Notes under the pieces: model-generated
What the model was told of the DNA's origin: nothing
The model's database searches: none
The model's input: the letters and a program-made list of their open reading frames with translations, nothing else
Assembly (NCBI RefSeq): GCF_017301635.1
Contig: NZ_CP071091.1
Location: forward strand, 4,910,001 to 4,974,000
Direction of reading: 5' to 3'
Length of the DNA: 64,000 nt
Source of the DNA: Myxococcus landrumus
GTDB taxonomy: Bacteria > Myxococcota > Myxococcia > Myxococcales > Myxococcaceae
Made by a program: the position numbers and the translations under genes
Shown: piece after piece, positions 19,412-36,357 of the stretch
Layout of the letters: every line of letters starts with the position of its first letter
How positions within the stretch are numbered: the first letter of the stretch is position 1

Positions 19412-21286
19412 TCAGAATTGGCCCGACATCCCCATCATGGCCCCGCCCTCGGGGAGCAGCGAGATGGACATCCGAGGCACTTCGCGAGGTGCGCGGCCGG
19501 AGCTCCAGGCTTCGAGGACATGCTCGGCAGGTGACCGTTGCAGGAAGGCGTCCAGCAGGAAGCTCGTCCCAGCAATCATGAAGGCCGGCCCTGCCAGCCG
19601 ATTGAGGGCGCGACCATAGTTCTCCGGCAACGGGGGCTTCACGTCCTCCATCCACACCGTGAGGGCAGCACCTGTGGCGAGGACGAAGGCACCCGTCAAC
19701 TTGAGAGCAAACCTGTTGCGCTCCTCGGTGACCGCGATGCTCCGGAGGCGCTCTTCGGTGCGCGCAACCACCAAGGCGTGGTCCTCCTGAGTCAAGAGCG
19801 CCCGCCGATATTCCGCTTCCACCTCCTCCCCCTCCGTGCTGCTCAGCAGCGACCATGTCCCGGCCCCAAGGAGGAGCGCGCTTGCCCCCAGATAGCTCCA
19901 GCTCGCGGCCTTGTACCCGCCCGCCCTCAGGTTGAGCCCTCCCGCGAGACCCATTGCCGCGCCACCCGTGAGCCGGAGCGCACCTTCGACGTGTCTGCTC
20001 TGGCGCTGCTGTCGTCCCAGTTGCCCCAGCAGCAAGCCCATGCGGTCACCGTCCTCGCGCGAGATGCCGTACACGGGAGTGGGGGTCGCCGCTTGTGCAC
20101 CGCGGAAGTCAGCAAGCGCCCGGGGGCCAAACGGCTGAGCGAAGAGCATGCGCAGTGGGTCCGTGATCCCCCGCGCCTCCAGCACGCGCTCGACAGAGAC
20201 GAGTGAGGAGAGGGTCCCCTGTTCCGCAGGCAACCCGAAGCGCTCGGAGCTCCCATCCGCGAGCACCCGCTCGACGCTCCCACCGCGAATGGCCTGGGGC
20301 AGGCGCAAGTGGACACGATGGCCCGCCTCGCTGTGGCTGTCTATCCAGCGCAGCCCCTCCGCATCCCGCACAACGAGCCGGACGGGCTCTGTCTCACCCA
20401 CATCGAGCACCGCGCCGGTCACGACCCCGGACTCCATCAGATGGACCTGGTTGTCGCCCGAGGGGCCTCGGGCAAACACATGCGGGCGGAAGGCGGGATT
20501 CTTCACTTCGTGGCTGGCGGTCTCCACGAAGGCAGCCAGCTCTTCGTAGGAGACCGCCCCGTCCCCGTCCCCGTCCGCCGCGCCGAGCAACCCCGAGCGG
20601 ACCGCATGACTGAAGATTCCAGACTGGAGCTCCGACCACTCATACACCTCCGCCTCCGCGCTCGTGGAGAGGAGCACCCCGACATTCTGGAGCCTGCGCC
20701 CCATGGCCTCCGCGGAGTCCACGGGCGTGGCGTAGCGCCGGCCGCCGGGCTTGCGCGGGTTGAGCATGAAGAACGAGTTGCAACTGTCGAGGACCACGTG
20801 GGCCCGTTGAACCGGAATCTTGGACAGCGCCTCCTCGAGCGCGTCGGACGTAAAGGCGCCATCTGCAAGCTCAAGGAAGCCCTTTCCTTGCTCGACATCT
20901 CCGTGACCAGCGAAGAGGAAGTACAGCTCACTCTCCCGTCCCTGGCGCGTGTTCTCTCGGACGCGCCGCGAGATGTCCTCGAAGGCCTCCTGAAGCCGTG
21001 CGAGGGTGGGTGGCTCCGCCCGCTGCCGCACCTCCGGAAACAGCCGCGCGGTGTCCTTGTCGAGTTCCGTGAGCACGCGCACATATGCCCCCGGGGCGAG
21101 CACCCGAAAGACGGTGTCGTACTTGGCAGCATCATCGTCCGCGAACTGGAGCCGGGGGCGTCCGAGGGTGGCACTCGCGTTGTTGCCGACAATCAAGACG
21201 AAGCGCTCGCGCGTTTCGGCCCAACAGAGCATGGGGAGGAGGAGCAACGTGTACGTGAGCGACTTCATGGCCGTGGAGAGATTCAT
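19412..21286 (-). CDS. exported caspase-like (C14) protein
   Basis: The 624-residue protein has an N-terminal signal peptide (LTYTLLLLPMLCWAE) and a caspase-fold peptidase domain (about 25-270). The catalytic dyad is visible as His128 in FLFAGHGD and Cys169 in VLDSCNS. DGDGDGAVSYEEL (near 235) is an EF-hand-like loop. The C-terminal third has two or three hydrophobic segments (LGASALLLGAGTWSL, LTGAFVLATGAALTV), so it is likely anchored in the envelope. The start ATG overlaps the anti-sigma stop as ATGA. As the third gene of an ECF-sigma operon, it is presumably made under the sigma factor's own control. Confidence 0.85.
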   Translation of the reverse strand: MNLSTAMKSLTYTLLLLPMLCWAETRERFVLIVGNNASATLGRPRLQFADDDAAKYDTVFRVLAPGAYVRVLTELDKDTARLFPEVRQRAEPPTLARLQEAFEDISRRVRENTRQGRESELYFLFAGHGDVEQGKGFLELADGAFTSDALEEALSKIPVQRAHVVLDSCNSFFMLNPRKPGGRRYATPVDSAEAMGRRLQNVGVLLSTSAEAEVYEWSELQSGIFSHAVRSGLLGAADGDGDGAVSYEELAAFVETASHEVKNPAFRPHVFARGPSGDNQVHLMESGVVTGAVLDVGETEPVRLVVRDAEGLRWIDSHSEAGHRVHLRLPQAIRGGSVERVLADGSSERFGLPAEQGTLSSLVSVERVLEARGITDPLRMLFAQPFGPRALADFRGAQAATPTPVYGISREDGDRMGLLLGQLGRQQRQSRHVEGALRLTGGAAMGLAGGLNLRAGGYKAASWSYLGASALLLGAGTWSLLSSTEGEEVEAEYRRALLTQEDHALVVARTEERLRSIAVTEERNRFALKLTGAFVLATGAALTVWMEDVKPPLPENYGRALNRLAGPAFMIAGTSFLLDAFLQRSPAEHVLEAWSSGRAPREVPRMSISLLPEGGAMMGMSGQF

Positions 21287-22104
21287 GGCGCTTTCTCGAG
21301 CATCAACGTCCAGTGGGTGAGTGCGGCCTCCGGCCAACGCGCGCGGAGGAGTGGTTCCAGGTTCGGGCTCTTCTCGAGCGCCTCCATGTCGAGGACGCGG
21401 AGGGGCTCGGACGTCACCAGCGCAAAGACTTGCAAGGGGCCCAACGCGGGCTGGTCGAGCAGCACCGCCTCCGGCATGGGGGTGTCGCGTACCGAGGGCG
21501 ACAGCTCGACCGAGCGAGGGTCCTCCCCCGGCGTGAGGTACGCGGGGTAGAGCCAGTGAAGCTCGCCGGCTGCGTCCCTGGCGAAGAGGAGGAGAAAAGC
21601 GGGCGTCTCGCCCAGGTTGCGGAAGCGCGCGAAGAGCGGGGTCGACGGCGAGAGGACCGCTCCGGGACGAAGCAGCACGGGTGGACTGCCGGCGGAGAGC
21701 AGGTCCACTCCCACATACCGGTGGAGTGGTGCAACGAATTGCCCGCCCCGCGCGGCGAACTGCGTTCGGCGGGGAGAGAACTCCTGCACCGCATATCCAC
21801 ACAAGACGCCTGTCACCGCCAGGCATGCCGTGGCGAGTCCTGCGCGCCAGCCCGGTGGCCACCAGGCCATGGGGTGACGGAGGGGCTTGTCCTTGAGACG
21901 GGCCATGAGGGCTTGGACGTCGCGCTCATCCACGGGAGGCGGTGGCGCGCTCAGGCGGGCCACCAACTGCTTCTGTGCGTTCAGCTCTCGGCGGCAGGAT
22001 GCGCAGCCGGACAGGTGTCCTTCGAGCCATCGGGAACGATGGAGGGTGCTCTCGCCCTCCAGCCATTCCAGCAGCTCCATGGGGTCGGGACAGGGGGCGC
22101 TCAT
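21283..22104 (-). CDS. zinc-finger anti-sigma factor with C-terminal DUF4384-like domain
   Basis: The N-terminus has the zf-HC2 motif HLSGCASC (His30, Cys34, Cys37), the anti-sigma zinc-binding site. One membrane segment follows (about 86-106, WRAGLATACLAVTGVLCGYA) and then a periplasmic domain with VGVDLLSAG, TPLFARFRNLGETPAFLLLF and ELHWLYPAYL, resembling DUF4384. The protein probably holds the ECF sigma factor at the membrane and releases it on an envelope signal. Overlaps of ATGA on both sides couple it to the sigma and caspase genes. Confidence 0.85.
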   Translation of the reverse strand: MSAPCPDPMELLEWLEGESTLHRSRWLEGHLSGCASCRRELNAQKQLVARLSAPPPPVDERDVQALMARLKDKPLRHPMAWWPPGWRAGLATACLAVTGVLCGYAVQEFSPRRTQFAARGGQFVAPLHRYVGVDLLSAGSPPVLLRPGAVLSPSTPLFARFRNLGETPAFLLLFARDAAGELHWLYPAYLTPGEDPRSVELSPSVRDTPMPEAVLLDQPALGPLQVFALVTSEPLRVLDMEALEKSPNLEPLLRARWPEAALTHWTLMLEKAP

Positions 22105-22691
22105 TCGCCATCCTCCTGGGTGTGCGCGCGCAGTTGGCGGATGCCGAGAAACACGCGCGAGCGGACGGTGCTGACAGGCACATCGAGGATCCGTGCAATC
22201 TCGGGGTAGTCGAGCCCCTGGCTGAATCGAAGCAGCACGGCCTCCTTCAGCTTGGGAGACAGCTCATGCAGGGCCACCAGGGTGCGGCGGCGGCGCTCGA
22301 CGTCGAGGAGGGTGTCGAGGGGGGAGTGCGCAGTGACGCCCTCCTCCTGTGTGAGGTGCCGCGTCCGGCGCACGCGGTCGCGATACTGATTGCGACAGAG
22401 GTTGCGCACCACCGTGTAGAGATAGACGGAGAAGGGACGCGCTGGCCGGAACTCCCGGCGCGCATGCCAGACCTTGAGCAGGGCCTCTTGCGCGGTCTCC
22501 GCCCCCGCGGCGGCGTCGCCCAGATAGCGGGTCGCGAACTGCTGAACCTGCGCCAGGTGCCGCCGGACGAGCGCCGCGAAGGCGTCCTCTGCCCCCGCGC
22601 TGGCCAGGAGCATCAGCTCCGCGTCAGTGCGCTCCTCGACCGGCCTGTCTGGAGGCGGCAAGACGAACATTCTTGGATTTCGCTCGGACAT
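22101..22691 (-). CDS. ECF-type RNA polymerase sigma factor
   Basis: The 196-residue protein contains sigma region 2 (AFAALVRRHLAQVQQFATRY, AAAGAETAQEALLKVW, PFSVYLYTVVRNLCRNQYRD) and region 4 (LSPKLKEAVLLRFSQGLDYP, EIARILDVPVSTVRSRV). I chose ATG 22691 (MSERNPRMFV); a longer frame from 22784 adds an improbable basic extension. It heads the sigma/anti-sigma/caspase operon. The upstream interval 22692-22814 should hold its promoter. Confidence 0.9.
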   Translation of the reverse strand: MSERNPRMFVLPPPDRPVEERTDAELMLLASAGAEDAFAALVRRHLAQVQQFATRYLGDAAAGAETAQEALLKVWHARREFRPARPFSVYLYTVVRNLCRNQYRDRVRRTRHLTQEEGVTAHSPLDTLLDVERRRRTLVALHELSPKLKEAVLLRFSQGLDYPEIARILDVPVSTVRSRVFLGIRQLRAHTQEDGE

Positions 22692-25796: not shown

Positions 25797-26405
25797 TTAT
25801 CGACCCGCTTGCCTTGCAGCCCTCGCAATCCAGTTCGGAAAGTTGTTGTAGCCGTCATCGGATACCCAGTCGTAAACTTCAAATAGGGACGAAAGAACTG
25901 GCCTGGTCCCTGGAGCAAGGAAAGGGGCGACGTACGGCGAGATCGGATCGGCATCTTCGTATGGCGTCCAGCCGTTATCGCCATTGACGAAAGGAGTCAT
26001 TGTCTTTTTGGTGTCGCTACCGCCATAGCCCAGATAATCGAAAGGGTTCGGACCAGCATTATCCGGCCCATTTTTCGGGTCCTTGAGTTGGTGAATGCGG
26101 ATACCGACCACCCCCTTCCCAAGCTCAATGCTACGGAAAATCTCGTAATGGACCCAATGCCGAGCGTACGTCTCAGCACCGATCAGCACGCACGTCACAG
26201 AAGACCCTGGCAGCCCCTTATTAATCGCTCGCTTGACGGCCAATTTCCCCTCTGTCTTTGCTAGCTCCGAGAGAGAGCCGTCGAAATATCCAGCTGCTTG
26301 GTACCCGAACTTTGTAACATAGTGGTTCTTAATCTGCTGTACGCGCATAATATCGCGTTGGAAATGGAAGCTGAAGAACACGAATCGTCCGGTAGAATCC
26401 GCCAC
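25797..26405 (-). CDS. ThsB-like TIR domain protein (MTH538 type)
   Basis: The GTG at 26405 has an excellent ribosome-binding site (AGGAGGAG, four bases before it), so the longer frame from 26441 is rejected. The 202-residue product opens GRFVFFSFHFQRDIMRVQQI, the MTH538/DUF1863 TIR-like signature, followed by SSVTCVLIGAETYARHWVHY then Glu88, the equivalent of the TIR catalytic glutamate. ThsB proteins of Thoeris systems have this form and make an NAD-derived signal on phage infection. GC is visibly lower than in neighbours. It sits between the broken IS66 and the SLOG gene, 195 bases from it, and may be a separate acquisition. Confidence 0.8.
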   Translation of the reverse strand: MADSTGRFVFFSFHFQRDIMRVQQIKNHYVTKFGYQAAGYFDGSLSELAKTEGKLAVKRAINKGLPGSSVTCVLIGAETYARHWVHYEIFRSIELGKGVVGIRIHQLKDPKNGPDNAGPNPFDYLGYGGSDTKKTMTPFVNGDNGWTPYEDADPISPYVAPFLAPGTRPVLSSLFEVYDWVSDDGYNNFPNWIARAARQAGR

Positions 26406-26600
26406 GCGACTCCTCCTAGATACGCGAACTACATTTGACAATACTCAGCAGGCAGATGCTTTTCTTACTCGGCGATGCCTTGGTTCAGCGACCTAGCTCC
26501 ACATGCAGCCAACCATGTGTTCGGCCTCCGCTCCGTTGCCGTGCACGAATTAGCGCCAAACAGCGACCAAGCCGCTGTTGTCAGCTATCCCTGCCTCCGT
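26406..26600. other. spacer with no gene seen
   Basis: It presumably contains the promoter of the ThsB-like gene. No terminator of the SLOG operon was recognised. Confidence 0.3.
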
Positions 26601-27242
26601 TCAAGGCCCCCTAAGCGGGGGCAGGCCTGCTGGAGGTGGAGTCGAGCCTGCGGCCCTGCTCAGCAGCCTCCTAAAAAGAGATGCATACGCGGCGTCAAAC
26701 TTCAGCCCAACATCCTTAACACCCCAAGGTTCACGGTCGAATATGACGCGGGCGGCTGCCCCCGTTGAAGCCACCGCGAGAAGGGCAGCCTTAGGGTGGT
26801 GCCGCCGGAACAACTCAAACTCTTCCTCAACACCATCCATTCCTCCGATGAACACCCCAGCCCGGAAGTCCTCGCTGCCAATCATCTGTTCGCGCATGCG
26901 CAATAGGCTGGAAGAACGATCCACCCCTGGAGGGGTCCAGATGATATGGCGAAACCTCAGGGAACTGGGAGGGATGACGCTCTGGAAGAACGCAGACTGA
27001 TAGATGTAGACGCGGTCCGCAGCCCCGAGCCTCTCGGCGGCAAGGTGGACCAGGGGGGAAATGGCTGGATGCCCGCCAAATACGAGCCGGTCCGTCGGAA
27101 GCACCACCACAGTGAGCGCGGCGACTGCCTCCCGGATGCCGAGGATGTTCGCGGTAGAGAGGTAGACCTGACCGCGGCCTGGCAGGGGAACGCTCGCCGA
27201 GAGGAAGATGGGCCCCAAAGAATGCGCTACCGTGTCAGCCAC
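26601..27242 (-). CDS. SLOG-like nucleotide-binding protein
   Basis: The 213-residue protein begins at GTG 27242 and reads SLGPIFLSASVPLPGRGQVY, then IREAVAALTVVVLPTDRLVF and GGHPAISPLVHLAAE (Gly56-Ile61). A Rossmann-like strand followed by GG-x-PAI is typical of SLOG-superfamily sensors, which bind nucleotide-derived ligands in conflict systems, as in ThsA of Thoeris. No effector domain is attached. The gene overlaps the preceding TIR gene by 16 bases, implying a shared transcript and probably a shared function: a TIR product could be the ligand. Confidence 0.7.
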   Translation of the reverse strand: MADTVAHSLGPIFLSASVPLPGRGQVYLSTANILGIREAVAALTVVVLPTDRLVFGGHPAISPLVHLAAERLGAADRVYIYQSAFFQSVIPPSSLRFRHIIWTPPGVDRSSSLLRMREQMIGSEDFRAGVFIGGMDGVEEEFELFRRHHPKAALLAVASTGAAARVIFDREPWGVKDVGLKFDAAYASLFRRLLSRAAGSTPPPAGLPPLRGP

Positions 27243-28435
27243 GTTAGCACCTCTGTGACAGCCAGGGACTTGGTGGGAAGGCTCTTATTGAGCCACTCCA
27301 GGTGCGCTGCCTTCTTGGGCCACATCCCTAGCGGGTCGTAGATGATGCACCCCTGGGATGGATGGGTTCCGCACTTCAAGCAGTCGTCCTCGATTTGCTG
27401 CAGCAGGGTGGTCTCCGGATGGCCCACGACCGGGAGGACGTACGTAGCCCCCTTGGAGGGATGTTGCACCTCGAGGAGTCCCGAGGGTTGGACGACCACC
27501 TCCACCCCGTGCCACTCAAGTTGCTTACAGAACTCGGTGATGACCCGGGTCTTTCGGCTCGCCAGGGAGCGGGCTCGCGTCCCCTCGGCCAGGGCCACGA
27601 CTTCCTCCATCCGGGTGCCAAGGAGGGTCGATCCCGGATCGCTTGCCGTGCCCTGAAAGTCCTTGGCCTCCAGATACACTGGCTCGCACAGTTCCGTCCC
27701 GAGCACCCGCTTGTGCGGCGGAGGCCAGATGAGCTGAAGCACACCGAGGCCCAGGTTGTGGGCACGGGCGACCTCCTGCTCCACCCATTTGCTGGTGAAG
27801 GCATGAGGAGTGTCCAGCAAGATGAGGAGATCGGTGTCTCCCATCCTGTCCCACAGCATGGGCTGGAACTCGTCACCCCGCTGGATGCTGTGTGTGTCTA
27901 GGAAGACCTCGAACGAACGCGCCTCTAGTGCGTGATGGAGCTGGAGCGCAACGCCGCGCGACTCGTCTCGCTTATAACTGATGAAGACCAGTCGGCGAGA
28001 GCGCATCAGCCCCAATTCCTCCGTGAGCCGGGCCACGGGGTGCTGCAGAGCCAGGTCGCCAGGGACCAGCTCCATTCCGTTGATCGGAGCCAGCGCCGCA
28101 GGCACTTGCGTGCTGTATCCCAACAGTGTCGGGACCACAGGTAGGACGAAGCGCCCCTCTGCTCGGAGTTGCGCTACGATCCGAGTGGCCTCTACGCTTT
28201 GATGTGGCCCGCCGAAGTACACGGCGGCCACGGGCAGGAACGGGGCTCGCTCGTTGTGGAAGTTGGTCTCGTTAAGCGTCCGGAGCGTAGTCTTCGGGTC
28301 CAGCCCCAGCATCGTCATCTGGCGCTCAAGGGTGGCCAGGAGCGTGGCCGAGTAGCCCCCCCCGGGGACGTACTGGCGCTCCGGCTCGAGCAGCACCACC
28401 TGATAGCAATGCGAAGTACCCATGGAGCCTACCAT
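27227..28435 (-). CDS. TIR domain protein with flanking unknown domains
   Basis: 402 residues. Residues 1-140 form an alpha/beta region (PVAAVYFGGPHQSVEATRIV, FVLPVVPTLLGY) seen in some TIR proteins. The TIR domain covers about 147-255: RRLVFISYKRDESRGVALQL, VFLDTHSIQRGDEF, LLILLDTP, SKWVEQE with the likely catalytic Glu221. The C-terminal 145 residues (CKQLEWHGVEVVVQPSG on) are unrecognised. The ATG lies three bases after the stop of the upstream ThsB-like gene. Expected activity is NAD cleavage or cyclisation. Confidence 0.8.
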   Translation of the reverse strand: MVGSMGTSHCYQVVLLEPERQYVPGGGYSATLLATLERQMTMLGLDPKTTLRTLNETNFHNERAPFLPVAAVYFGGPHQSVEATRIVAQLRAEGRFVLPVVPTLLGYSTQVPAALAPINGMELVPGDLALQHPVARLTEELGLMRSRRLVFISYKRDESRGVALQLHHALEARSFEVFLDTHSIQRGDEFQPMLWDRMGDTDLLILLDTPHAFTSKWVEQEVARAHNLGLGVLQLIWPPPHKRVLGTELCEPVYLEAKDFQGTASDPGSTLLGTRMEEVVALAEGTRARSLASRKTRVITEFCKQLEWHGVEVVVQPSGLLEVQHPSKGATYVLPVVGHPETTLLQQIEDDCLKCGTHPSQGCIIYDPLGMWPKKAAHLEWLNKSLPTKSLAVTEVLTWLTR

Positions 28436-28438
28436 GCC

Positions 28439-28831
28439 TCAGCCCAGCCTGTCTCGCAGCACCCGGGCGAGGGCATTGGGCTCGAATGTGACCTCCGGCT
28501 CGGCCCTTATCTCCCGGGGCAGGCCGCCAAGCGTTCCGGGGAGGCGGACGGGGATAATGACCTTGTGGAGCGACTGCGCCACCGAAACCTCGTAGTCGAC
28601 CCACTTGCGACTATGGCTCGTGTCTCCCACGAGCACGAGGACTGCGGCGGCCCCCTGGATGAGCGGCCGCAAGTGGTTGCGGATTTCCTCTTCACCATGC
28701 TGCCGGACATCGGCGCGCTCGCAGGTGACCACGATGTTGGAGCCCAGTCGCTGCCCTTCAATCCAGCCCGCGACCCTGTCCTTGTGGGATTTCTCCTCAT
28801 AGCAGTAGCTGATGAAGACGGATTGCGGCAT
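28439..28831 (-). CDS. short TIR-like protein (ThsB type)
   Basis: The 130-residue stand-alone domain begins MPQSVFISYCYEEKSHKDRV, continues AAAVLVLVGDTSHSRKWVDY and has Glu81 right after it, the expected catalytic glutamate. The C-terminal tail is short. The ribosome-binding site GGGGAGG stands six bases before the ATG. It leads the minus-strand operon (ThsB-like, TIR, SLOG) and faces the plus-strand operon across 71 bases. Confidence 0.8.
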   Translation of the reverse strand: MPQSVFISYCYEEKSHKDRVAGWIEGQRLGSNIVVTCERADVRQHGEEEIRNHLRPLIQGAAAVLVLVGDTSHSRKWVDYEVSVAQSLHKVIIPVRLPGTLGGLPREIRAEPEVTFEPNALARVLRDRLG

Positions 28832-28902
28832 CGTCGGCCTCCCCGTAAGGATTCATTCTTCACGGTCAGTGTACCAGAACAACTGCTCTCGGGGAGGCCG
28901 CC
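28832..28902. promoter_or_regulatory. divergent promoter region of the two TIR operons
   Basis: 71 bases separate the two start codons. Both starts are preceded by the same ribosome-binding block, so the region is bounded by an inverted repeat (GGCCTCCCCG ... CGGGGAGGCC). Both operons must be transcribed from within or across this segment, suggesting coordinated control. No clear -35/-10 pair was identified. Confidence 0.5.
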
Positions 28903-29298
28903 ATGTCGACGGAACTCATTACCAAGCGCGCGGAGATCCTCCAGGGCATCATCACCCGGATGGCGCAGAACTCCTTCACCATCAAAGGGTGGGCTGTCAC
29001 CATCATCGCGGCGCTGCTGGCCTTCGCGAACAAAGACACAGAGCGGCACTTCGCGCTCCTCGCGATCTATCCATCGGTAGTGTTCTGGGGACTGGATGCC
29101 TATTACGTCATGAAGGAGCGTCATTTCCGGGCACTGCCGATGCAGCCCTCAACTTCGGGAGAGGAGCTCGATTTCACCTTGCCTGGTCGTGCTTGGTGGC
29201 GCTTTCTCTGGGACTATGCCTACGCCCTGCTCGCGCCGACGGTCGCGCTGCTCTATGTCGTTTCGCTGTTCGTCACGTGGCTGGTGGTTTGCACCTGA
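28903..29298 (+). CDS. small membrane protein of the TIR island
   Basis: 131 residues with three predicted membrane segments: WAVTIIAALLAFA (about 30-42), FALLAIYPSVVFWGLDAYYV (about 50-69) and LLAPTVALLYVVSLFVTWLV (about 108-128). The region QNSFTIKGWAVTIIAALLAF followed by FWGLDAYYVMKERHFRAL resembles a family of small membrane proteins that accompany TIR and SLOG-type systems (SLATT-like); this is from memory. In such systems the membrane protein is a candidate pore effector. The ribosome-binding site is GGGGAGG. Confidence 0.6.
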   Translation: MSTELITKRAEILQGIITRMAQNSFTIKGWAVTIIAALLAFANKDTERHFALLAIYPSVVFWGLDAYYVMKERHFRALPMQPSTSGEELDFTLPGRAWWRFLWDYAYALLAPTVALLYVVSLFVTWLVVCT

Positions 29299-29435
29299 GT
29301 CCCAAGACGGGAACGGAACCAGGCCGGGCTACGGGTCTAATGGTCCAGTGGCCCCAACAGATGCTTTCGGGGTGCGCTAGGACCCGGGCTCAGCTGAATG
29401 ACAAAGGAGGCGCCGCCCTCCCTTGGCGCACGGTA

Positions 29436-30668
29436 ATGTGCGGCAACAGGACCATGAATTTCCCGAGAGTCTTCATCAGCTACTCAGCGAAGGAACCTGC
29501 GGGCGAACGGTTGCGGGATGATCTTGCACGGCGCCTGAGGGAGGCTCGCTACCACGTCCTCCTGGATACGGACGAGGTGCGCCTGAGCCAGGACTGGCGC
29601 TCCACGCTTAACGCCTGGATTGGCGGGTGTGATGCCGCAGTGCTGTTATTGTCAGCGGAGGCCCTGAAGTCGACCTACGTCGCCTACGAGGTCAGCCTGC
29701 TGTCCTACAGGCATACCAGCGAGCGGGGCCGGTTCAAACTCATCCCCGTCTATCTACCACCCGTGACAATGGAGCAGGTGGATTGCAGTCCGCTCGCGCC
29801 TGCGCGTGTCGCGGACATTCAGTCTATCCGCGCGACCACCCCCGAGGACGAAGCCATCCAGCAGATCCTCAACCACCTTAAGGAGCATGTACCCTTCTCG
29901 TCCGTCGCAGAACGACATGCCCGGCGACTTGGCGGCATGCTTTCCCAGGTACATGCCGTGGATCTGGAAGCTGCTGTCCACAGAATGGGCTCAGAGATGG
30001 AACCCTGGACGCCCGGGCTGGAGCTCCCTATGAAAGTCGCGCTGGGCCTCAGGGCCGCCGGGCTTGAGAAAGCCACTCTGGGTGTCAGGGTGTTCCGCTC
30101 ACGCCTGCCGGGGGTAGCAACCCTCGAAGAGGTGATGACTCTCATCGCGACCTCCTGGGTCGACTGCCGCTCCTCCTCCGAGATTGGCAAGTGCGAGGCG
30201 AAGTCGGGAATGCTCGCACTCAACGGTGATGACTCCCGCACCGCGTGGCTCTATGTCGTGGGTGCGTGCGATATGCCAGTGAACGACTCCTGGCGGGTCG
30301 TGAAGGTGGACGGAGTAGTTGGTGACGGCGGCCTCGACGAGTTGAAGCGGATGGTGCGCTCCGCGCTGGCCTTCAAGCTGAACGTACCTCCCGAGAAGGT
30401 CGATGAGACTGTGCGTGACCTCATCGAGAGCCAGGATCCTGTATTCGTGACCATGCGGCTGTCAGTTCTGACGCAGACAACGCTAACCGAGCTGCGCGCG
30501 GAATTCCCCGACATCACTTTCTTCTTCCTGACGAGCGGCGAGCGACTCTCCGATGAGCTGGCAAACCAGGTGGGCATCACCGTGCTGCACCCATTGCTCG
30601 AGCCAGGGATAGAGCAACCATTTTGGCAGCTCTACGACAAGAAGCTCTCGATTCTGAAGAAGCCCTGA
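29436..30668 (+). CDS. TIR domain protein, N-terminal TIR plus unknown C-terminal domain
   Basis: Residues 8-140 are a TIR domain: RVFISYSAKEPAGERLRDDL, YHVLLDTDEVRLSQDWRSTL, DAAVLLLSAEALKSTYVAYE with Glu85 as likely catalytic residue. The remaining 270 residues form an unrecognised alpha/beta region (LPMKVALGLRAAGLEKATLG, ITFFFLTSGERLSDEL) that may be the adaptor seen in MoxR/vWA ternary systems. I start it at ATG 29436; ATG 29454 (MNFPRVF) is the alternative. A 12-codon mini-frame (29398-29436) ends TAATG on this start, with an AGGAGG at 29405. A long upstream frame from 28812 is a shadow of the membrane-protein gene. Confidence 0.8.
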   Translation: MCGNRTMNFPRVFISYSAKEPAGERLRDDLARRLREARYHVLLDTDEVRLSQDWRSTLNAWIGGCDAAVLLLSAEALKSTYVAYEVSLLSYRHTSERGRFKLIPVYLPPVTMEQVDCSPLAPARVADIQSIRATTPEDEAIQQILNHLKEHVPFSSVAERHARRLGGMLSQVHAVDLEAAVHRMGSEMEPWTPGLELPMKVALGLRAAGLEKATLGVRVFRSRLPGVATLEEVMTLIATSWVDCRSSSEIGKCEAKSGMLALNGDDSRTAWLYVVGACDMPVNDSWRVVKVDGVVGDGGLDELKRMVRSALAFKLNVPPEKVDETVRDLIESQDPVFVTMRLSVLTQTTLTELRAEFPDITFFFLTSGERLSDELANQVGITVLHPLLEPGIEQPFWQLYDKKLSILKKP

Positions 30669-30681
30669 GGAACATCAGGAC

Positions 30682-31626
30682 ATGTCCAAAGCATCCACCC
30701 TCAAATATCACAAGCTCTTCGCTCCCGAGACCGTCGAGCCCCCTCGCAAACCCCATGTTCAGACAGGCGACCAGCGCCAGGCCGTCACCTACGTCTACTC
30801 GGAGGACATCATCCTTCGAGTCAACATCGCGCTCGCGACAGTGCGACCGCTGTTGGTGCGCGGTCCTTCCGGCACGGGAAAGAGCTCCCTCGCCCGGAGC
30901 GTGGCGCAGGTGCTCGGGTGGCGGTACTACGAGACCGTCATCACCTCGCGGACCCAGGCGAGGGATCTGCTCTGGCAGGTAGACCTGCTGAGCCGCCTTC
31001 ATGACGCCCAGACCCGGCGAAGGTTCGAAGTGGACCAGGAGCGCTATGTAACCCCCGGGGCGTTGTGGTGGGCCTTCGACGAGGCGAGCGCCAGGGCCCA
31101 GCGACTTCGCGGTGCCCGGGGTTCATCGAGTGCCATTGACCCCAATCTGGGCGGTGCGCACTCGCGGGCGGTGGTCCTCCTGGATGAGATAGACAAGGCG
31201 GACCCGGACACTCCCAACAACCTCCTCGTGCCACTAGGTTCGCTTCAGTTCCAGGTTGAGGAGACGGGTCGGCTCGTGGAGACGACCCCGGACAAGGCGC
31301 CCCTCATCATCATCACCACGAACGATGAACGAGAGTTGCCCCTCGCCTTCCTGCGGCGATGCATCGAGCTTCCACTTGAATACCCGACGAGTGAGCGGCT
31401 GGTGGAGATCGGCCGCGCCCAACTTCATTCTCTGGATGAGGGACTGCTCCAATCTGTAGCCCAGGCCCTACTGCCCACACAGGGCCAGCCCAACGTCAGC
31501 GCCGCTGAGTATGTTGATGCGCTCCGGGCGTGTGTGAGCCTGAAGCTTGCTCCCCATGATGACGCTTTCAAGCAACTACTGGCATCCACCGTCTGGAAGC
31601 ATGGGCGCAAGGAGCCTCGCAAGTGA
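30682..31626 (+). CDS. MoxR-type AAA+ ATPase
   Basis: The 314-residue ATPase shows Walker A GPSGTGKSS (61-69), Walker B VVLLDEID (164-171), sensor 1 ITTNDERELP (211-220) and an arginine finger in FLRRC (223-227). The insert before Walker B and the absence of extra domains fit the MoxR/AAA_5 group. These act with vWA-domain proteins as remodelling chaperones, and in bacterial ternary conflict systems they are proposed to control release of an effector. The gene follows the TIR gene by 13 bases and overlaps the vWA-like gene by GTGA. Confidence 0.88.
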   Translation: MSKASTLKYHKLFAPETVEPPRKPHVQTGDQRQAVTYVYSEDIILRVNIALATVRPLLVRGPSGTGKSSLARSVAQVLGWRYYETVITSRTQARDLLWQVDLLSRLHDAQTRRRFEVDQERYVTPGALWWAFDEASARAQRLRGARGSSSAIDPNLGGAHSRAVVLLDEIDKADPDTPNNLLVPLGSLQFQVEETGRLVETTPDKAPLIIITTNDERELPLAFLRRCIELPLEYPTSERLVEIGRAQLHSLDEGLLQSVAQALLPTQGQPNVSAAEYVDALRACVSLKLAPHDDAFKQLLASTVWKHGRKEPRK

Positions 31627-32603
31627 GGCGTGACCACTCGTCGAGCCTGGCGGACCTGGCCCACGCCCTGGCCCGATTGCAACCCGCAGACGAAGCGACT
31701 CGATCAGCCATCGCGGCCATCGTTCTGCCCCGAGAACAGGTAGACGAGACGCGCGCCCCGCTAGAAGCCGGGTCGATTCCACTTCCGGAACCGGCGCCTG
31801 TTGCCATGAGCCCATTCCTGCCGCCACCACCGTCTCCCCCCCTTCGTCAGCACGACTCGGCCGGAGATGAACAAGAGGACGTTCCGGTGGTCGTGACCCG
31901 ACTCCGGCGGCCGAGTCCCTCTGTGCCAAAGTGGGTCGAGAAAGAGCCTTCGTTCTTGGCCGCCTCACACCCTGAAATCCCCGCCCCGGAGCCCGCGCCA
32001 TTGCTGGAAGCCGGGCGCTCGCGGGCAACGCTCTCAGCAATGCTGTCGACGCATGGCGAAGACCAGCTCAACTTCGAAGCAGTCATTCTGCGCATCGGCA
32101 GGGGACAAGCATTGGGAATTCCCCTTCCGTTGCGTGGTGTCCCCACGCTCTCGCGTGGGGTACAACTGCTTGTGGACCGAGGTGAGGCCATGCTCCCCTT
32201 TCATCGCGACGCAACGCACCTGGAGCACAGGCTCGCCCAGCTCGTCGGAGCGGGACTGGAGCTGCTCCACTTCGCAGCGTGCCCAGCTCGTGGGTGCGGG
32301 AAGGGAGCCCGACACCAGTGGAGCCCCTACGGCCCCAAGCATTTCCCCCGTCCGGGGACGCGAGTTCTGTGTGTGACGGATCTAGGGCTCGGCGCGGCGC
32401 CGGGGGGCGAGATTCCCGCTACCCGGGAAGAATGGTGGCGCTTCGCGATGATGCTTCGCCGGGCGGGATGCTCGGTGGGCGTGCTGCTCCCCTATCCATC
32501 TGAACGTTGGCCATCGGAGCTGTCCCGAGTCATGGAGCTGTTCTCCTGGGACCGGACTCTGACAGTTTCACGCGCCATGCAAGGCCTTCCGCAGAGGCGC
32601 TGA
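31623..32603 (+). CDS. vWA-like partner protein with degraded MIDAS
   Basis: 326 residues. The N-terminal 30 are helical (LADLAHALARLQPADEATRS), followed by a long Pro/Ser-rich linker to about 130. The C-terminal domain (about 150-320) has the strand order of a vWA fold: RGVQLLVDRGEAMLPF, LELLHFAACP, TRVLCVTDLGLG, CSVGVLLPYP. The metal site DxSxS is replaced by DRGEA (Asp185), though an Asp remains at 253. It thus looks like a divergent vWA protein partnering the MoxR ATPase, as in SAV_2336-type systems. GTGA overlap upstream and a four-base gap downstream show tight coupling. Confidence 0.65.
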   Translation: MRRDHSSSLADLAHALARLQPADEATRSAIAAIVLPREQVDETRAPLEAGSIPLPEPAPVAMSPFLPPPPSPPLRQHDSAGDEQEDVPVVVTRLRRPSPSVPKWVEKEPSFLAASHPEIPAPEPAPLLEAGRSRATLSAMLSTHGEDQLNFEAVILRIGRGQALGIPLPLRGVPTLSRGVQLLVDRGEAMLPFHRDATHLEHRLAQLVGAGLELLHFAACPARGCGKGARHQWSPYGPKHFPRPGTRVLCVTDLGLGAAPGGEIPATREEWWRFAMMLRRAGCSVGVLLPYPSERWPSELSRVMELFSWDRTLTVSRAMQGLPQRR

Positions 32604-32607
32604 GCCC

Positions 32608-35600
32608 ATGGGTTCCCTCGTCGCAGCCCGCCACCTCGTCGAACAGGTCGCGTCCCAGGCGCCTCTCTCCGTGGAACTCGCCTGCCTCGCATCATTCGCA
32701 GTCCGTGTGGACCCACCGCTCCTGCGGCAACTGAGGCTGGAGCTGCTCCCAGAGAGCTCGCCCGCCGTGGAAGCAGACCTCTGGCTGGGCAGCCTCGTCA
32801 CCTTCCGAGGCCCCGACGGATTCGTCTTTGCGCCCGGGGTCGGAGCCGTCCTCCGCGAGCGGCTCGCCACCGGGAACCCCGAGCGCTACGAGCAGGCGTG
32901 GAACATCACCCAACACGCACACAAGTCGTGGCTCTCCCCTGCGCTGCGCCTGGAAGAGAATCTCAACTATGCACAGTCCAGTCCAGACCCGGAAGTCTTC
33001 GCGCGCGCGCGGAGGCTGCTGCGCCAAGCGGTGGCCGAGCTGGCCCGAAACCCGTCCGTGGTGGCCCCATGGGCCGCCGGCGCGACGACACGACTCTCCT
33101 CCGACCTGATGGATATGGAAGAGGGACGAATGCTCGCTATGGCCGCCCGGGCACATCTCCCGGGAAGCCTGCTGCCCCCGTCGCCGCCCTCCGGCCCCCT
33201 CCCTGCGTGGATGCACCGGCTCTCACTCGAGAGGATGGAGCGCATCAAACTCGGCGTGAGGATGTCCCCTCATACCATCGAGATCGTGGAGCGGACCAAG
33301 CCGCATGACGAGGTCATCGAACTGCCACGGACAAACCCGCTGGTCGTGGAGGTGGCCACGAATAACAAGCACAGCGCACGCCCCAGGCCTCGACACGTAT
33401 TCATCGACGGATTCGATTCCGACCGGCGAAACTGGGGGTGGTGCTACCGCATCCGCGAGTCGCTGAGACAGAACGCACATCAAACCTTCATGCGCAATGA
33501 GCCAGAATATCGAAGAGACCCCGCCGGTGACTCAATCGATGAAATCATCGAAAAGTGTGACGCTTGGGTCATTGTCATCTCCCTCGATTCGGATCGTGCG
33601 CGGAATGCCATGTGGGAGCAAATGAGGAGGCTGAGGAATCGGTCAGCCCCGAAGCGCGAAAGGTTCACGCTCGTTCTGGTACATGTACTCCCAGAGAATG
33701 CTGCTGCACCAGAAACACCCAATTGGCCTAGCTTCATGCAATGGGAGCAGGTCCAGATTGAAGCTAGAACCGGGAGAGAGCACCACGTCATTCGTCGGAT
33801 CATTGAAGTCATCGAGGCGCCACGCAAAGACGCGACACGTTGGAGAAGATTCGATTTCGCGCAGTCGGGTCCTATGCGGATTCCACTGACGTCCGGAGCG
33901 TTGAGGCTGCGCACACTGCTGGGGGACGAGTACGTCATCGAACCCGCCATGGCTCTCGGATTGAAGCCCGTGCCACGTCCCGTGGACAACTTTGTCGTTC
34001 ATCCGCGAGCGCTCGACACATTGCTGCAGAAAGTCTCGTCGCAGTCCTCCCTCATCACTATTTCAGGTCGCGCAGGCACCGGAAAGACCCAGCTCGTCCG
34101 ACGGTTCCTCGACGCGGCGGCACCGGCCTTTCCGCATGGACGATACGTACTTGCCCCCCTCCAGTCGGGAGCCCGCCCAACCGTGTACTCCATCGCCTGG
34201 GAGGTGGTACGAACCCTTGCCCCTGAGAGTGAGCGGCCAAGTGAAGACGTCCTCCAGCGCTACCATTCTCTGACGTCTGAGCGGGAAATCGCGCTGGTAC
34301 TGGAAGACGTCGATCAGTGGGAGGGGAGCCCTCGGCAGCTTGTAAGAAAGCTCAACGCCTTGCGACCGTATCGCCGAGGCACACTCCTCGTCATCACGTC
34401 ACGCGCCCCCATCGAAGGTCTCAACGCACCAAGGGTGGAGCTCGAAGAGCTCGACGCAAAGGTCGCCATGGACCTGTTGCTAAAAGTGGCACCAGAAGCC
34501 AAAGCGCACGCCACGGAGCTACTGGAAATCCTGGGCCGTCTTCCGACGGCACTGCATGAAGTCGGAGTCGCAATCTCCCAGCTACCCTCGGACTTCGACC
34601 TCGCCCGATACGTGGAGCTCTTGCGACTAGCATCCATCCTGACCGTCTTCCCATCCACCTTCGACCGTCACGCCGCCGCCACAGTTCTGACGGAGGGCAT
34701 CGCAAGCCCTTCGATTCCGAGTTCCAAGGAAGCCGCTTCACTGGCAGGCGAGTTGATCCAGGCCGGCCTGATGAAGCCCGTGGAGCACGGAAGATACGCG
34801 CTGTGGAGACCGATACGGCACGCAGCAGAATACAGGTCTGGTGAACTGCTGTCTCATGAGGCAACCTTTCGCTACAGCGCTTACTACCTGGGCATGGCCG
34901 TGGCCCTCCATGACCAGTACTCACGAAAGGGGCGCGCACGCTCGGAGGCTATTGCTACCTTCGATACAGAGTCGGCGAACATCGTCCGCGCCGTCGAGTG
35001 GTTCTTTCCGCCAATGCCGGTGGCGAGCCCAGCGCGGACCACGCTTGACATGACTGCTTCGTTGCGAGCCGTCGCCCCGACACTGTTGAGACTACGTCGA
35101 CCACCAGCGGAACGAGAGCAATGGTTCCAGACAGCCGGGCACCAGAGCCCCGAGGATCCATTGCTCTTGCTCGAAGTGGCTATCGCCCAGGCGGAACTTG
35201 GACGTACGGAAGAGGCGGTGGAGACATGTGAGCGCGCGCGTGCACTGGTGTCCCATCCTTCGGATGCCGCGGACATCCTCGTCAAGCTGGCTCGGTTCCA
35301 GCTCGACCTGGGCAGCCGCTCGGAAGCTCAGTCGACGTTGCTTCTCATTCTGGATGAGGGAAAGGATTCCAGCGCGATCAGGGCAGAGTTCCGCTATGTC
35401 ACATCGCGCCTTCTCTTCCTGGCTGGTAGAAACGTTGAAGCCGAGCCCCTGCTGAGAGAAGCCCATGCACTGGCCACGGAAGCAGGTGACATCCGGCTCG
35501 AAATAGATGCCCGACTTGGACTCGCGCTCATCGCTGTGGAACGGACCGAACTGAACCGGGCAGCAGCTCTTTGTGAAGAAGCGCTCGAATTCGCCCGCTC

Positions 35601-36357
35601 CTGGCGCGATGACCGGGGAGTTGCCCTGGCGGCCTGGGAGCTTGGCAAGGTGCGTCTCCGCCAGAGAATCCGCGAGCGTGCCAGGGAATTGCTGCAAACC
35701 CTCGTAGACTACTACCGCACCATCGGGCATGCACGGGCCGAGCAAGCGGCACGAGAACGCAAGGAACTCCTGCGCCCGAGCGGTCCCCTGGAGGCCAGTC
35801 CTCCCTCGGCAGAGCCCAAGGCCATCGCGGAGATTTTCCAAAAACACATAGAACTGATCGTGCACCATTTGAGGTTCGACCTTCAATGCAGCCACGAGAC
35901 AGCCCTTGACTCAGCTGTCGACGCCATCTTTTCCTATCTCAGAAGCCCCGAGAGATACGACCCCAAGGGGACTCGCATCGAGACCTATCTCGTTCAGACG
36001 GCCAGGCGCAAAGCTCTTGATCGAATTAGGTCCGAGTCCGCGCGAACCCGACGTGAGCAGGATTTCGCCGATCTAATTGGACTCGAGGCGACGAGCCCTA
36101 ATGAGAACCTGGAAGTCACGGTGGAGGCAAGGAGGGTCTCGGACGTTCTGACGACACATAGTGCGTTGAGCAACCCAAATGACCTCGCCACCCTGCGATT
36201 GCTGCTTCAGGGAGAGAACTCCACCGAGACACTCGCGAAGGCGATGGGGCTCGATGGTCTCTCCAAAGAGAAGATGAGACTGGAAGTGAAGCGCCAACGA
36301 GATCGGATCATGAAGCACCTGCAGCGCTTGGGAGAGATGGGCTCTGACGATTCTTGA
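32608..36357 (+). CDS. TIR-like / STAND NTPase / TPR / sigma-70-like fusion protein
   Basis: 1249 residues in one clean frame. About 1-210: helical domain with RQLRLELLPESSPAVEADLW, LGSLV and LRLEENLNYAQ, resembling N-termini in MoxR/vWA ternary systems. About 260-400: TIR-like (RPRHVFIDGFDSDRRNW, CDAWVIVISLDSDRARNAMW). About 470-790: STAND/NB-ARC NTPase, Walker A GRAGTGKT (487-494), Walker B LVLEDVDQW (Glu566, Asp567). About 840-1055: TPR array. About 1075-1249: sigma-70-like, region 2 DAIFSYLRSPERYDPKGTRI and ETYLVQTARRKALDRIRSES, then a region-4-like end ETLAKAMGLDGLSKEKM. The role would be NTP-gated sensing linked to transcription or to NAD signalling. Last gene of the operon. Confidence 0.8.
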   Translation: MGSLVAARHLVEQVASQAPLSVELACLASFAVRVDPPLLRQLRLELLPESSPAVEADLWLGSLVTFRGPDGFVFAPGVGAVLRERLATGNPERYEQAWNITQHAHKSWLSPALRLEENLNYAQSSPDPEVFARARRLLRQAVAELARNPSVVAPWAAGATTRLSSDLMDMEEGRMLAMAARAHLPGSLLPPSPPSGPLPAWMHRLSLERMERIKLGVRMSPHTIEIVERTKPHDEVIELPRTNPLVVEVATNNKHSARPRPRHVFIDGFDSDRRNWGWCYRIRESLRQNAHQTFMRNEPEYRRDPAGDSIDEIIEKCDAWVIVISLDSDRARNAMWEQMRRLRNRSAPKRERFTLVLVHVLPENAAAPETPNWPSFMQWEQVQIEARTGREHHVIRRIIEVIEAPRKDATRWRRFDFAQSGPMRIPLTSGALRLRTLLGDEYVIEPAMALGLKPVPRPVDNFVVHPRALDTLLQKVSSQSSLITISGRAGTGKTQLVRRFLDAAAPAFPHGRYVLAPLQSGARPTVYSIAWEVVRTLAPESERPSEDVLQRYHSLTSEREIALVLEDVDQWEGSPRQLVRKLNALRPYRRGTLLVITSRAPIEGLNAPRVELEELDAKVAMDLLLKVAPEAKAHATELLEILGRLPTALHEVGVAISQLPSDFDLARYVELLRLASILTVFPSTFDRHAAATVLTEGIASPSIPSSKEAASLAGELIQAGLMKPVEHGRYALWRPIRHAAEYRSGELLSHEATFRYSAYYLGMAVALHDQYSRKGRARSEAIATFDTESANIVRAVEWFFPPMPVASPARTTLDMTASLRAVAPTLLRLRRPPAEREQWFQTAGHQSPEDPLLLLEVAIAQAELGRTEEAVETCERARALVSHPSDAADILVKLARFQLDLGSRSEAQSTLLLILDEGKDSSAIRAEFRYVTSRLLFLAGRNVEAEPLLREAHALATEAGDIRLEIDARLGLALIAVERTELNRAAALCEEALEFARSWRDDRGVALAAWELGKVRLRQRIRERARELLQTLVDYYRTIGHARAEQAARERKELLRPSGPLEASPPSAEPKAIAEIFQKHIELIVHHLRFDLQCSHETALDSAVDAIFSYLRSPERYDPKGTRIETYLVQTARRKALDRIRSESARTRREQDFADLIGLEATSPNENLEVTVEARRVSDVLTTHSALSNPNDLATLRLLLQGENSTETLAKAMGLDGLSKEKMRLEVKRQRDRIMKHLQRLGEMGSDDS

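Follow-up and report, generated by a model that had tools for sequence, protein, structure and literature searches.

A STAND-type protein of a four-gene TIR/MoxR cluster in Myxococcus landrumus that ends in an ECF-like sigma module

The window analysed here is a stretch of 64,000 nucleotides from Myxococcus landrumus (NCBI RefSeq assembly GCF_017301635.1, contig NZ_CP071091.1, positions 4,910,001 to 4,974,000 of the forward strand; genome G000 in our set), and all coordinates without a locus label are positions in this window. The gene of interest occupies 32608..36357 on the forward strand and is the fourth of a tight cluster that encodes a TIR protein, a MoxR protein, a conserved partner and a STAND protein. 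It starts with ATG and encodes 1249 amino acids and, as the original prediction had it, the frame runs to 36357 with zero internal stops. The analysis confirms that one protein joins an N-terminal domain of the ternary-system type, a Toll/interleukin-1 receptor (TIR)-like region, an NTPase of the STAND class (signal transduction ATPases with numerous domains), tetratricopeptide repeats (TPRs) and a sigma module resembling the extracytoplasmic function (ECF) factors. Its parts, all on the forward strand, are described in order.

The N-terminal domain (residues 1-250; 32608..33357) is common to other four-gene systems and shares 28-50% identity with six of them (alignment A7; also aligned in A3); it had no match in a Pfam scan and nothing meaningful among PDB sequences (best E 0.72). 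The TIR-like domain follows (about residues 263-400; 33394..33807). TIR_2 is matched there at residues 277-377 below its cut-off (E=8.5e-4, 20.2 bits against 28), and likewise below it in both orthologues described later (E 4.3e-5 and 6.5e-6). The predicted domains were supported for the N-terminal domain, the STAND NTPase, the TPRs and the sigma-like end, while the TIR stayed sub-threshold in this protein and draws its support from a relative in genome G139, which has a clear TIR (3.9e-18) at the equivalent place. Glu337, the putative TIR glutamate, is unchanged across the three orthologues (alignment A4). A three-sequence profile of the region found no TIR structure at a useful E among PDB sequences (plant RPP1, 0.83), and an assignment by fold was given up, the single-sequence model having a mean predicted local distance difference test (pLDDT) score of 33.

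The NTPase (residues 456-620; 33973..34467) is matched marginally above cut-off by AAA_16 (32.8 against 32.6 bits) and AAA_22 (27.1 against 27), both around residues 468-595 in Pfam. NB-ARC scores 15.3 bits here, below its cut-off of 23.5, and 35.1 bits (1.1e-8) in the G003 orthologue. Walker A (GRAGTGKT, residues 487-494; 34066..34089) and Walker B (LVLEDVD, residues 563-569; 34294..34314) are as plain as had been claimed, and their key residues are invariant in the three orthologues (alignment A5). With the TPR region behind it (residues 841-1055; 35128..35772; Pfam matches between 840 and 1036, TPR_19 above and TPR_12 below cut-off) the protein has the Walker A/B NTPase and C-terminal superstructure repeats by which a STAND NTPase is recognised. 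A profile of the whole protein matched nothing among PDB sequences at 0.001.

The sigma module takes up the remaining residues, 1066-1249 (35803..36354). Its region 2 (residues 1077-1144; 35836..36039) passes Sigma70_r2 (PF04542) with E=1.2e-7 and 31.8 bits against a cut-off of 24. The TIGR02937 model (sigma70-ECF, NCBIfam) spans residues 1072-1234 and scores 39.2 bits in the whole protein, under its cut-off of 42.9, and 44.4 bits when the 185-residue tail is scanned alone. A region-4-like helix-turn-helix (HTH), with VKRQRDR in its last helix, lies at residues 1164-1244 (36097..36339), where it is covered by the TIGR02937 match and by the whole-domain fold alignments. Among 36 members of the tail family, TIGR02937 was found at E<=0.001 in 33 and Sigma70_r2 at E<=0.01 in 29. 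Compared with PDB sequences at E<=0.01, the family profile matched ECF sigma factors exclusively, namely R. sphaeroides RpoE (2q1z, 3e-6, profile positions 18-167) and M. tuberculosis SigK (4nqw, 1.9e-4, region 2). The genome, 10.4 Mb in one contig, holds 58 Sigma70_r2 matches, of which the fusion is the only one in a frame longer than 728 codons.

An AlphaFold2 model of the tail was made from 28 sequences (pLDDT 87.1; predicted template modelling score 0.51). When it was compared with the PDB by Foldseek, the first 19 matches were all to entries for sigma factors, either by themselves, paired with anti-sigma factors or within polymerase complexes, the chain identity of some not being stated in the entry title. 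The E-values were poor, the best being 0.089 and none reaching 0.001, although probabilities rose to 0.99, and the root-mean-square deviation (rmsd) of 13-21 across the full length is consistent with two sigma domains that are set differently relative to each other in the model. Region 2 was superposed by VIA-align on 2z2s_E (SigE-ChrR) with an rmsd of 1.7 across 72 residues and a Z of 9.2, a middling value of a kind frequent among helical proteins. A comparison of the tail with sigma-70 families and a structural alignment of its model, both proposed with the prediction, returned sigma factors. Neither of the refuting outcomes named there for the tail, the lack of a significant sigma-70 match or a likeness to unrelated helical domains only, was observed: curated sigma models were passed and sigma structures are the top fold matches.

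A search with the whole protein in 100 genomes, its own included (E<=1e-20), gave matches in 35. Among the 44 places listed, three are full-length, one is partial (G026, residues 12-252) and 40 comprise the C-terminal end alone. The orthologues in G002 (64% identity, residues 1-1249) and G003 (50%, residues 1-1244), both genomes of the same genus, are full-length and without stops, which rules out a sequencing frameshift joining two genes, and the three proteins align end to end. Between the window protein and that of G002, identity is 80% in the N-terminal domain, 44% in the TIR-like region, 65% in the NTPase, 54% in the part behind the NTPase, 68% in the TPRs and 57% in the sigma tail.

The MoxR neighbour was used to find further systems, and such genes were present in 10 of 189 Myxococcota genomes (E<=1e-25, own included). 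The counterpart in G139 has 1075 amino acids, aligns at 35% with window residues 1-1055 and stops where the TPRs end, its own TPR matches being sub-threshold. Since the tail is absent here and its own relatives are for the most part standalone proteins, it was gained as a module. Other systems have other ends. In one of the two systems of G136 (L207:4605-8387) the fourth protein has the N-terminal domain, an AAA match below cut-off and a pair of GerE/LuxR HTHs (1.9e-28; 1002-1052 and 1198-1248 of 1260), and in G026, the other G136 system, G154 and G156 the N-terminal domain is kept with different C-terminal parts. In G115 and G116 (L210-L212) the MoxR gene alone was recognised.

Matches to the sigma family in frames of more than 1000 codons occur in five genomes (G000, G002, G003, G054 and G151). 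In G054 and G151 they form the C-terminus of a NACHT protein of 1130 and 1135 amino acids (L038:5649-9041 and L129:3808-7215; NACHT 3.5e-13 and 8.9e-14), with sub-threshold HEAT repeats and with Sigma70_r2 at 23.4 and 19.8 bits, under the cut-off of 24. The tails of these NACHT proteins group in a tree with two standalone proteins of their own genus (support 100/99), those of the TIR type form an adjoining group (96/78), and all seven rows lie within one branch (96/88). Forcing the five fused tails into one clade, which was named post hoc after inspection of the data, was rejected (p-AU 0.014). Two separate fusions onto different STAND scaffolds are thus favoured by the sequences, though not proven. 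At L038 the gene preceding the NACHT fusion matches Schlafen/AlbA_2.

There are signs that the sigma tail is under purifying selection. The ratio of non-synonymous to synonymous change (dN/dS) between the window tail and that of G002 is 0.40 at a dS of 0.75 by a simple Nei-Gojobori count. Conservation in at least 85% of 32 standalone proteins picks out 46 residues, and the window tail retains 37 of them, where the standalone proteins, each left out in turn, retain a median of 96%. Five of the nine missing residues fall in the N-terminal stretch lost at fusion, and the LHxR helix found at the N-terminus of the family is lost in the TIR-type fusions. Such a loss could mean that the tail is a decayed sigma gene fused by chance and carried as a non-functional passenger, and the stretch of about 25-37 kb, to which a codon model trained on clear genes of the region gives a low score and which is flanked by what by eye are transposase-like fragments, suggests a mobile island. 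We consider this explanation very improbable, however, as the tail has been retained in three species with most of its conserved residues and a dN/dS below 1, and there is another fusion elsewhere. An origin from a phage or plasmid was rejected when the 180-residue tail found no match in phage or plasmid collections (tblastn, E<=1e-3), and neither the fusion protein nor the sigma family was matched in viral contigs.

The three genes that precede the fusion lie on the same strand. Gene 1 (29454..30668) encodes a TIR protein (TIR_2 2e-15 in the frame 28812-30668), the gene model being that of a simple gene caller. Gene 2 (30682..31626) encodes a MoxR-like AAA ATPase, matched above cut-off by AAA_5 (5.1e-15) and bpMoxR (2.8e-8; 33.5 bits against 27), so that a MoxR gene adjoins as a conserved neighbour. 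Gene 3 (31623..32603) shares 4 bp with gene 2, and 4 bp separate its end from the fusion gene. Its product is a conserved partner, of which eight sequences were aligned (A6) and in which, by eye only, the motif LLVD.GE.M reads like a degenerate von Willebrand factor A (vWA) domain; Pfam and NCBIfam gave no match and PDB sequences nothing meaningful. On this gene content we infer that the fusion gene belongs to a conflict system. Type III Thoeris genes lie on the opposite strand at 26601-28435, with ThcB4 at 323 bits (cut-off 220) and ThcA at 204 bits (cut-off 110), and two ThsB-type TIR genes are found at 28439-28831 and 25797-26441. The reverse strand at 19412-22670 contains an ordinary gene for an ECF sigma factor, with Sigma70_r2 at 62.1 bits near 22368-22571; behind it are two genes whose products resemble, by eye, an anti-sigma factor and a larger partner.

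Across 195 Myxococcota genomes the family profile (E<=1e-8) was matched in 61, or in 56 after the five weakest (E 1.5e-9 to 9.1e-9) were set apart because two resemble ordinary ECFs by eye and three have no BLAST match to sigma queries. Forty loci were fetched round matches and 38 have a called family member, 35 of them standalone and three fused (L032, L033 and L038); L068 in G026 has none, and the simple gene caller missed the member of L061 and split that of L032. The standalone proteins have about 200 residues and are encoded by the first gene of a conserved operon. A gene of the M78-type (ImmA/IrrE) cluster lies downstream in 32 of the 35 standalone loci, and in 27 of the 35 the next gene, as called, overlaps the sigma gene by 8-20 bp. 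At L042, the one locus scanned, the downstream genes encode a 125-residue protein with a sub-threshold HTH, an M78 protease above cut-off, a 393-residue protein without match and a 644-residue HerA-type ATPase (DUF87 1.6e-20). Family proteins at eleven distant loci (22-35% identity), in Anaerolineae and other Chloroflexi, Planctomycetales, Syntrophobacteraceae, Syntrophaceae, three Bacteroidetes-type bins and a Mycobacterium bin, are likewise standalone. Judged by length and by eye, most of these loci share the following genes and eight have a gene for 396-488 amino acids in front, which at L089, the one tested, matches type II DNA methyltransferase models (best 4e-41). The cross-phyla operon (L042:2101-7263; L088-L098) can be written as (DNA methyltransferase), sigma-like factor, HTH-like protein, M78 protease, unknown protein of about 400 residues and HerA-type ATPase, and has the look of a defence system, so far undescribed, that brings along a sigma-like factor of its own.

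The standalone genes have a promoter-like motif, GTCG[AC]ACT[CT]-N13/14-CGAA, 81-96 bp upstream of the start codon, one form being GTCGAACTC-N13-CGAA; its GAAC core and spacing we take to be ECF-like. From 66 upstream regions, 41 without near-copies were kept, and 10 regions from distant phyla and that of the fused L038 were set aside. The motif is present in all 30 remaining usable non-redundant myxobacterial regions (with a 14-bp spacer in two) and averages 0.0 in shuffles, which are the sole control for a motif defined on the same sequences in which it was counted. Matches inside a gene (L058) and with a spacer of 11 (L093) were left uncounted, and the 10 regions set aside from distant phyla all lack the motif at this spacing. 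Flanking sequence is 33-42% identical between 26 loci, the boxes being conserved there by the choice of rows. With spacers of 12-17 bp the motif has 28 matches in the M. landrumus genome against 12 for the reversed pattern, and most of these genomic matches are therefore uninformative. At exactly N13 there are five sites, three within coding sequence and two before a gene in the right orientation. The second of these two (G000:C1:3388582-3388607, L162) lies 54 bp before an acyltransferase-like gene, by eye a paralogue of the gene adjoining the standalone sigma operon; that adjoining gene matches FeeM (E 4.7e-5) and Acetyltransf_5, both under cut-off. Similar N13 sites are among the matches listed in G003, G004, G005, G013 and G025. 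A promoter shared by the fusions was rejected, as among L032, L033, L038 and L129 the motif is confined to the last two, where it falls within the sigma coding sequence. DNA aligned upstream of three four-gene operons has no clear common block. The GTCGAACT octamer with at most one mismatch is commoner in the whole window than in shuffles (67 against a mean of 45.1; 0 of 100 as high), with the second box missing.

Taken together, we think it somewhat more probable than an even chance that the fusion protein is the STAND receptor of a four-gene TIR/MoxR/(vWA-like)/STAND conflict system, to which an ECF-like sigma module was added behind the TPRs as an output. At rest the ATP switch and the TPRs would hold the sigma module closed. 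A cue from infection or stress, arriving through the MoxR ternary partners or through sensing by the TPRs, would lead to nucleotide exchange and oligomerisation, and the exposed sigma modules could then recruit core RNA polymerase and turn on defence or developmental genes. Activation of the receptor would in this way redirect RNA polymerase, as had been suggested for it.

Several observations weigh against this reading. In alignment A1, which holds 36 of 38 references (L034, with a wrongly called start, and L071 were left out), the region-2.2 position is Ile in 19, Val in 12, Cys in three and Leu in two, the window protein having Val, and zero of the 28 sequences of alignment A2 have Gln there. 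When the 30 matches with the best scores were taken from the 58 to Sigma70_r2 in the genome, a choice of comparison that favours Gln, 29 had Gln at this position, which we take to be the residue contacting the polymerase clamp, and the remaining one had His; the adjoining acidic residue is retained in 35 of 36 family members. The region-4-like end that had been predicted is carried by the TIGR02937 span and by whole-domain fold alignments that extend to residue 184 of the tail, but a profile of region 4 itself (16 sequences) matches no sigma factor and region 4 has a long turn. Models of region 4 were found in few of the 36 family members (Sigma70_r4 in two, Sigma70_r4_2 in one). The motif of the standalone genes has no occurrence in the window, and the search yielded no target promoter for the fusion; between G054 and G151 dN/dS is 0.50 for the tail against 0.31 for the NACHT part. 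Finally, the C-terminal end of STAND proteins is usually the sensor, so that the sigma module may be a bait and not an output.

The absence of the region-2.2 Gln across the whole family would also suit a sigma-derived domain that binds DNA or blocks the polymerase, anchoring the receptor to either and repressing transcription. The last helix, VKR..DR..K, is the best conserved part of the tail, and its V, K, R, D, R and K do not vary among 28 sequences, some of them from other phyla, and the GAAC/CGAA motif could equally be an operator. We hold such a role to be unlikely, since the fold retains region 2 and, by whole-domain alignments, region 4, and since the motif has -35/-10-like boxes at a fixed spacing of 13-14 bp, 81-96 bp ahead of the start codon.

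The main rival is an integrated decoy, in which the sigma module occupies the sensor position and is a bait for phage proteins that seize or modify host RNA polymerase or its sigma factor. Once such a protein had taken the bait the receptor would be triggered, with the TIR-like domain at the N-terminus acting as effector. TIR, NTPase, repeats and module follow one another as in receptors whose effector is N-terminal; the putative TIR glutamate does not vary among the three orthologues, the system adjoins type III Thoeris genes, and loss of the region-2.2 Gln would suit a mimic. Under a TIR effector, however, the TIR would not be expected to be weak in the three sigma-bearing orthologues and intact in the sigma-less G139 protein, which is the observed pattern (three against one), and another system of the set bears LuxR HTHs, a type of output. 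Because gain of the sigma module goes with a weak TIR, and because of the LuxR-bearing system, an output is favoured over a bait on these small numbers; we regard the decoy as a minority possibility, to be taken more seriously than a blocking domain.

For the sigma module as output, the wider claim that this is a prokaryotic NLR-like receptor with a built-in sigma effector, in which recognition of an invader turns the receptor into a specificity subunit of RNA polymerase, seems to us plausible at slightly less than an even chance. If true, detection and the reprogramming of RNA polymerase would be linked within one chain. In M. landrumus the fusion might cross-activate the standalone sigma operon: the genome has kept the motif of this operon, and the last helices of the two sigma proteins are much alike (VKRHRDRL against VKRQRDRI). 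The conserved promoter-like motif of the standalone relatives opens the idea to a direct test.

The outputs known for bacterial STAND receptors are mostly nucleases, proteases, NADases or pores, or HTHs, and MalT and similar STAND regulators couple the switch to transcription through a LuxR-type HTH rather than a sigma factor. The original prediction knew of no STAND receptor with a sigma factor module at its C-terminus, and our literature search, which covered the field in part and is weak evidence of absence, found no STAND protein that bears sigma regions 2 and 4 together. The portions covered of the literature on ECF sigma factors with C-terminal extensions likewise gave no STAND extension. 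ECF42 factors, as described there, also join sigma regions 2 and 4 to a regulatory TPR part; they have about 200 residues of TPR behind the sigma factor, whereas here about 1060 residues of TIR-STAND-TPR stand in front, and the ECF42 order is not found. In the vWA-MoxR ternary conflict systems (Kaur et al. 2020, PMC7159879), too, MoxR is combined with a partner and a variable third protein, and there are TIR, STAND-like and repeat parts. The system described here differs in its sigma-like variable end and in a vWA-like partner without a library match, and the words 'sigma' and 'RNA polymerase' are absent from the main text of that paper. Cyanobacterial SigR (r4_2*NB-ARC*TPR_MalT; PMC11119718) likewise has NB-ARC, TPR and a sigma-type HTH, but going by the text covered this is a region-4-type HTH without region 2 and at the opposite end. 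A sigma-type output has been proposed for conflict systems with TRADD-N proteins carrying an ECF-like HTH and for EACC2 loci with a separate ECF gene (PMC8195603), where the core is TRADD-N or caspase and the HTH is described as ECF-like. A CARD-NLR-like system under a repressor is described in the covered part of PMC13236601. In type III-E CRISPR, as far as the sections covered describe it, CASP-sigma (PMC10028731) also makes an ECF sigma factor the end point of a defence system, but there the sigma factor is a protein of its own, kept in check by Csx30, an inhibitor that undergoes cleavage.

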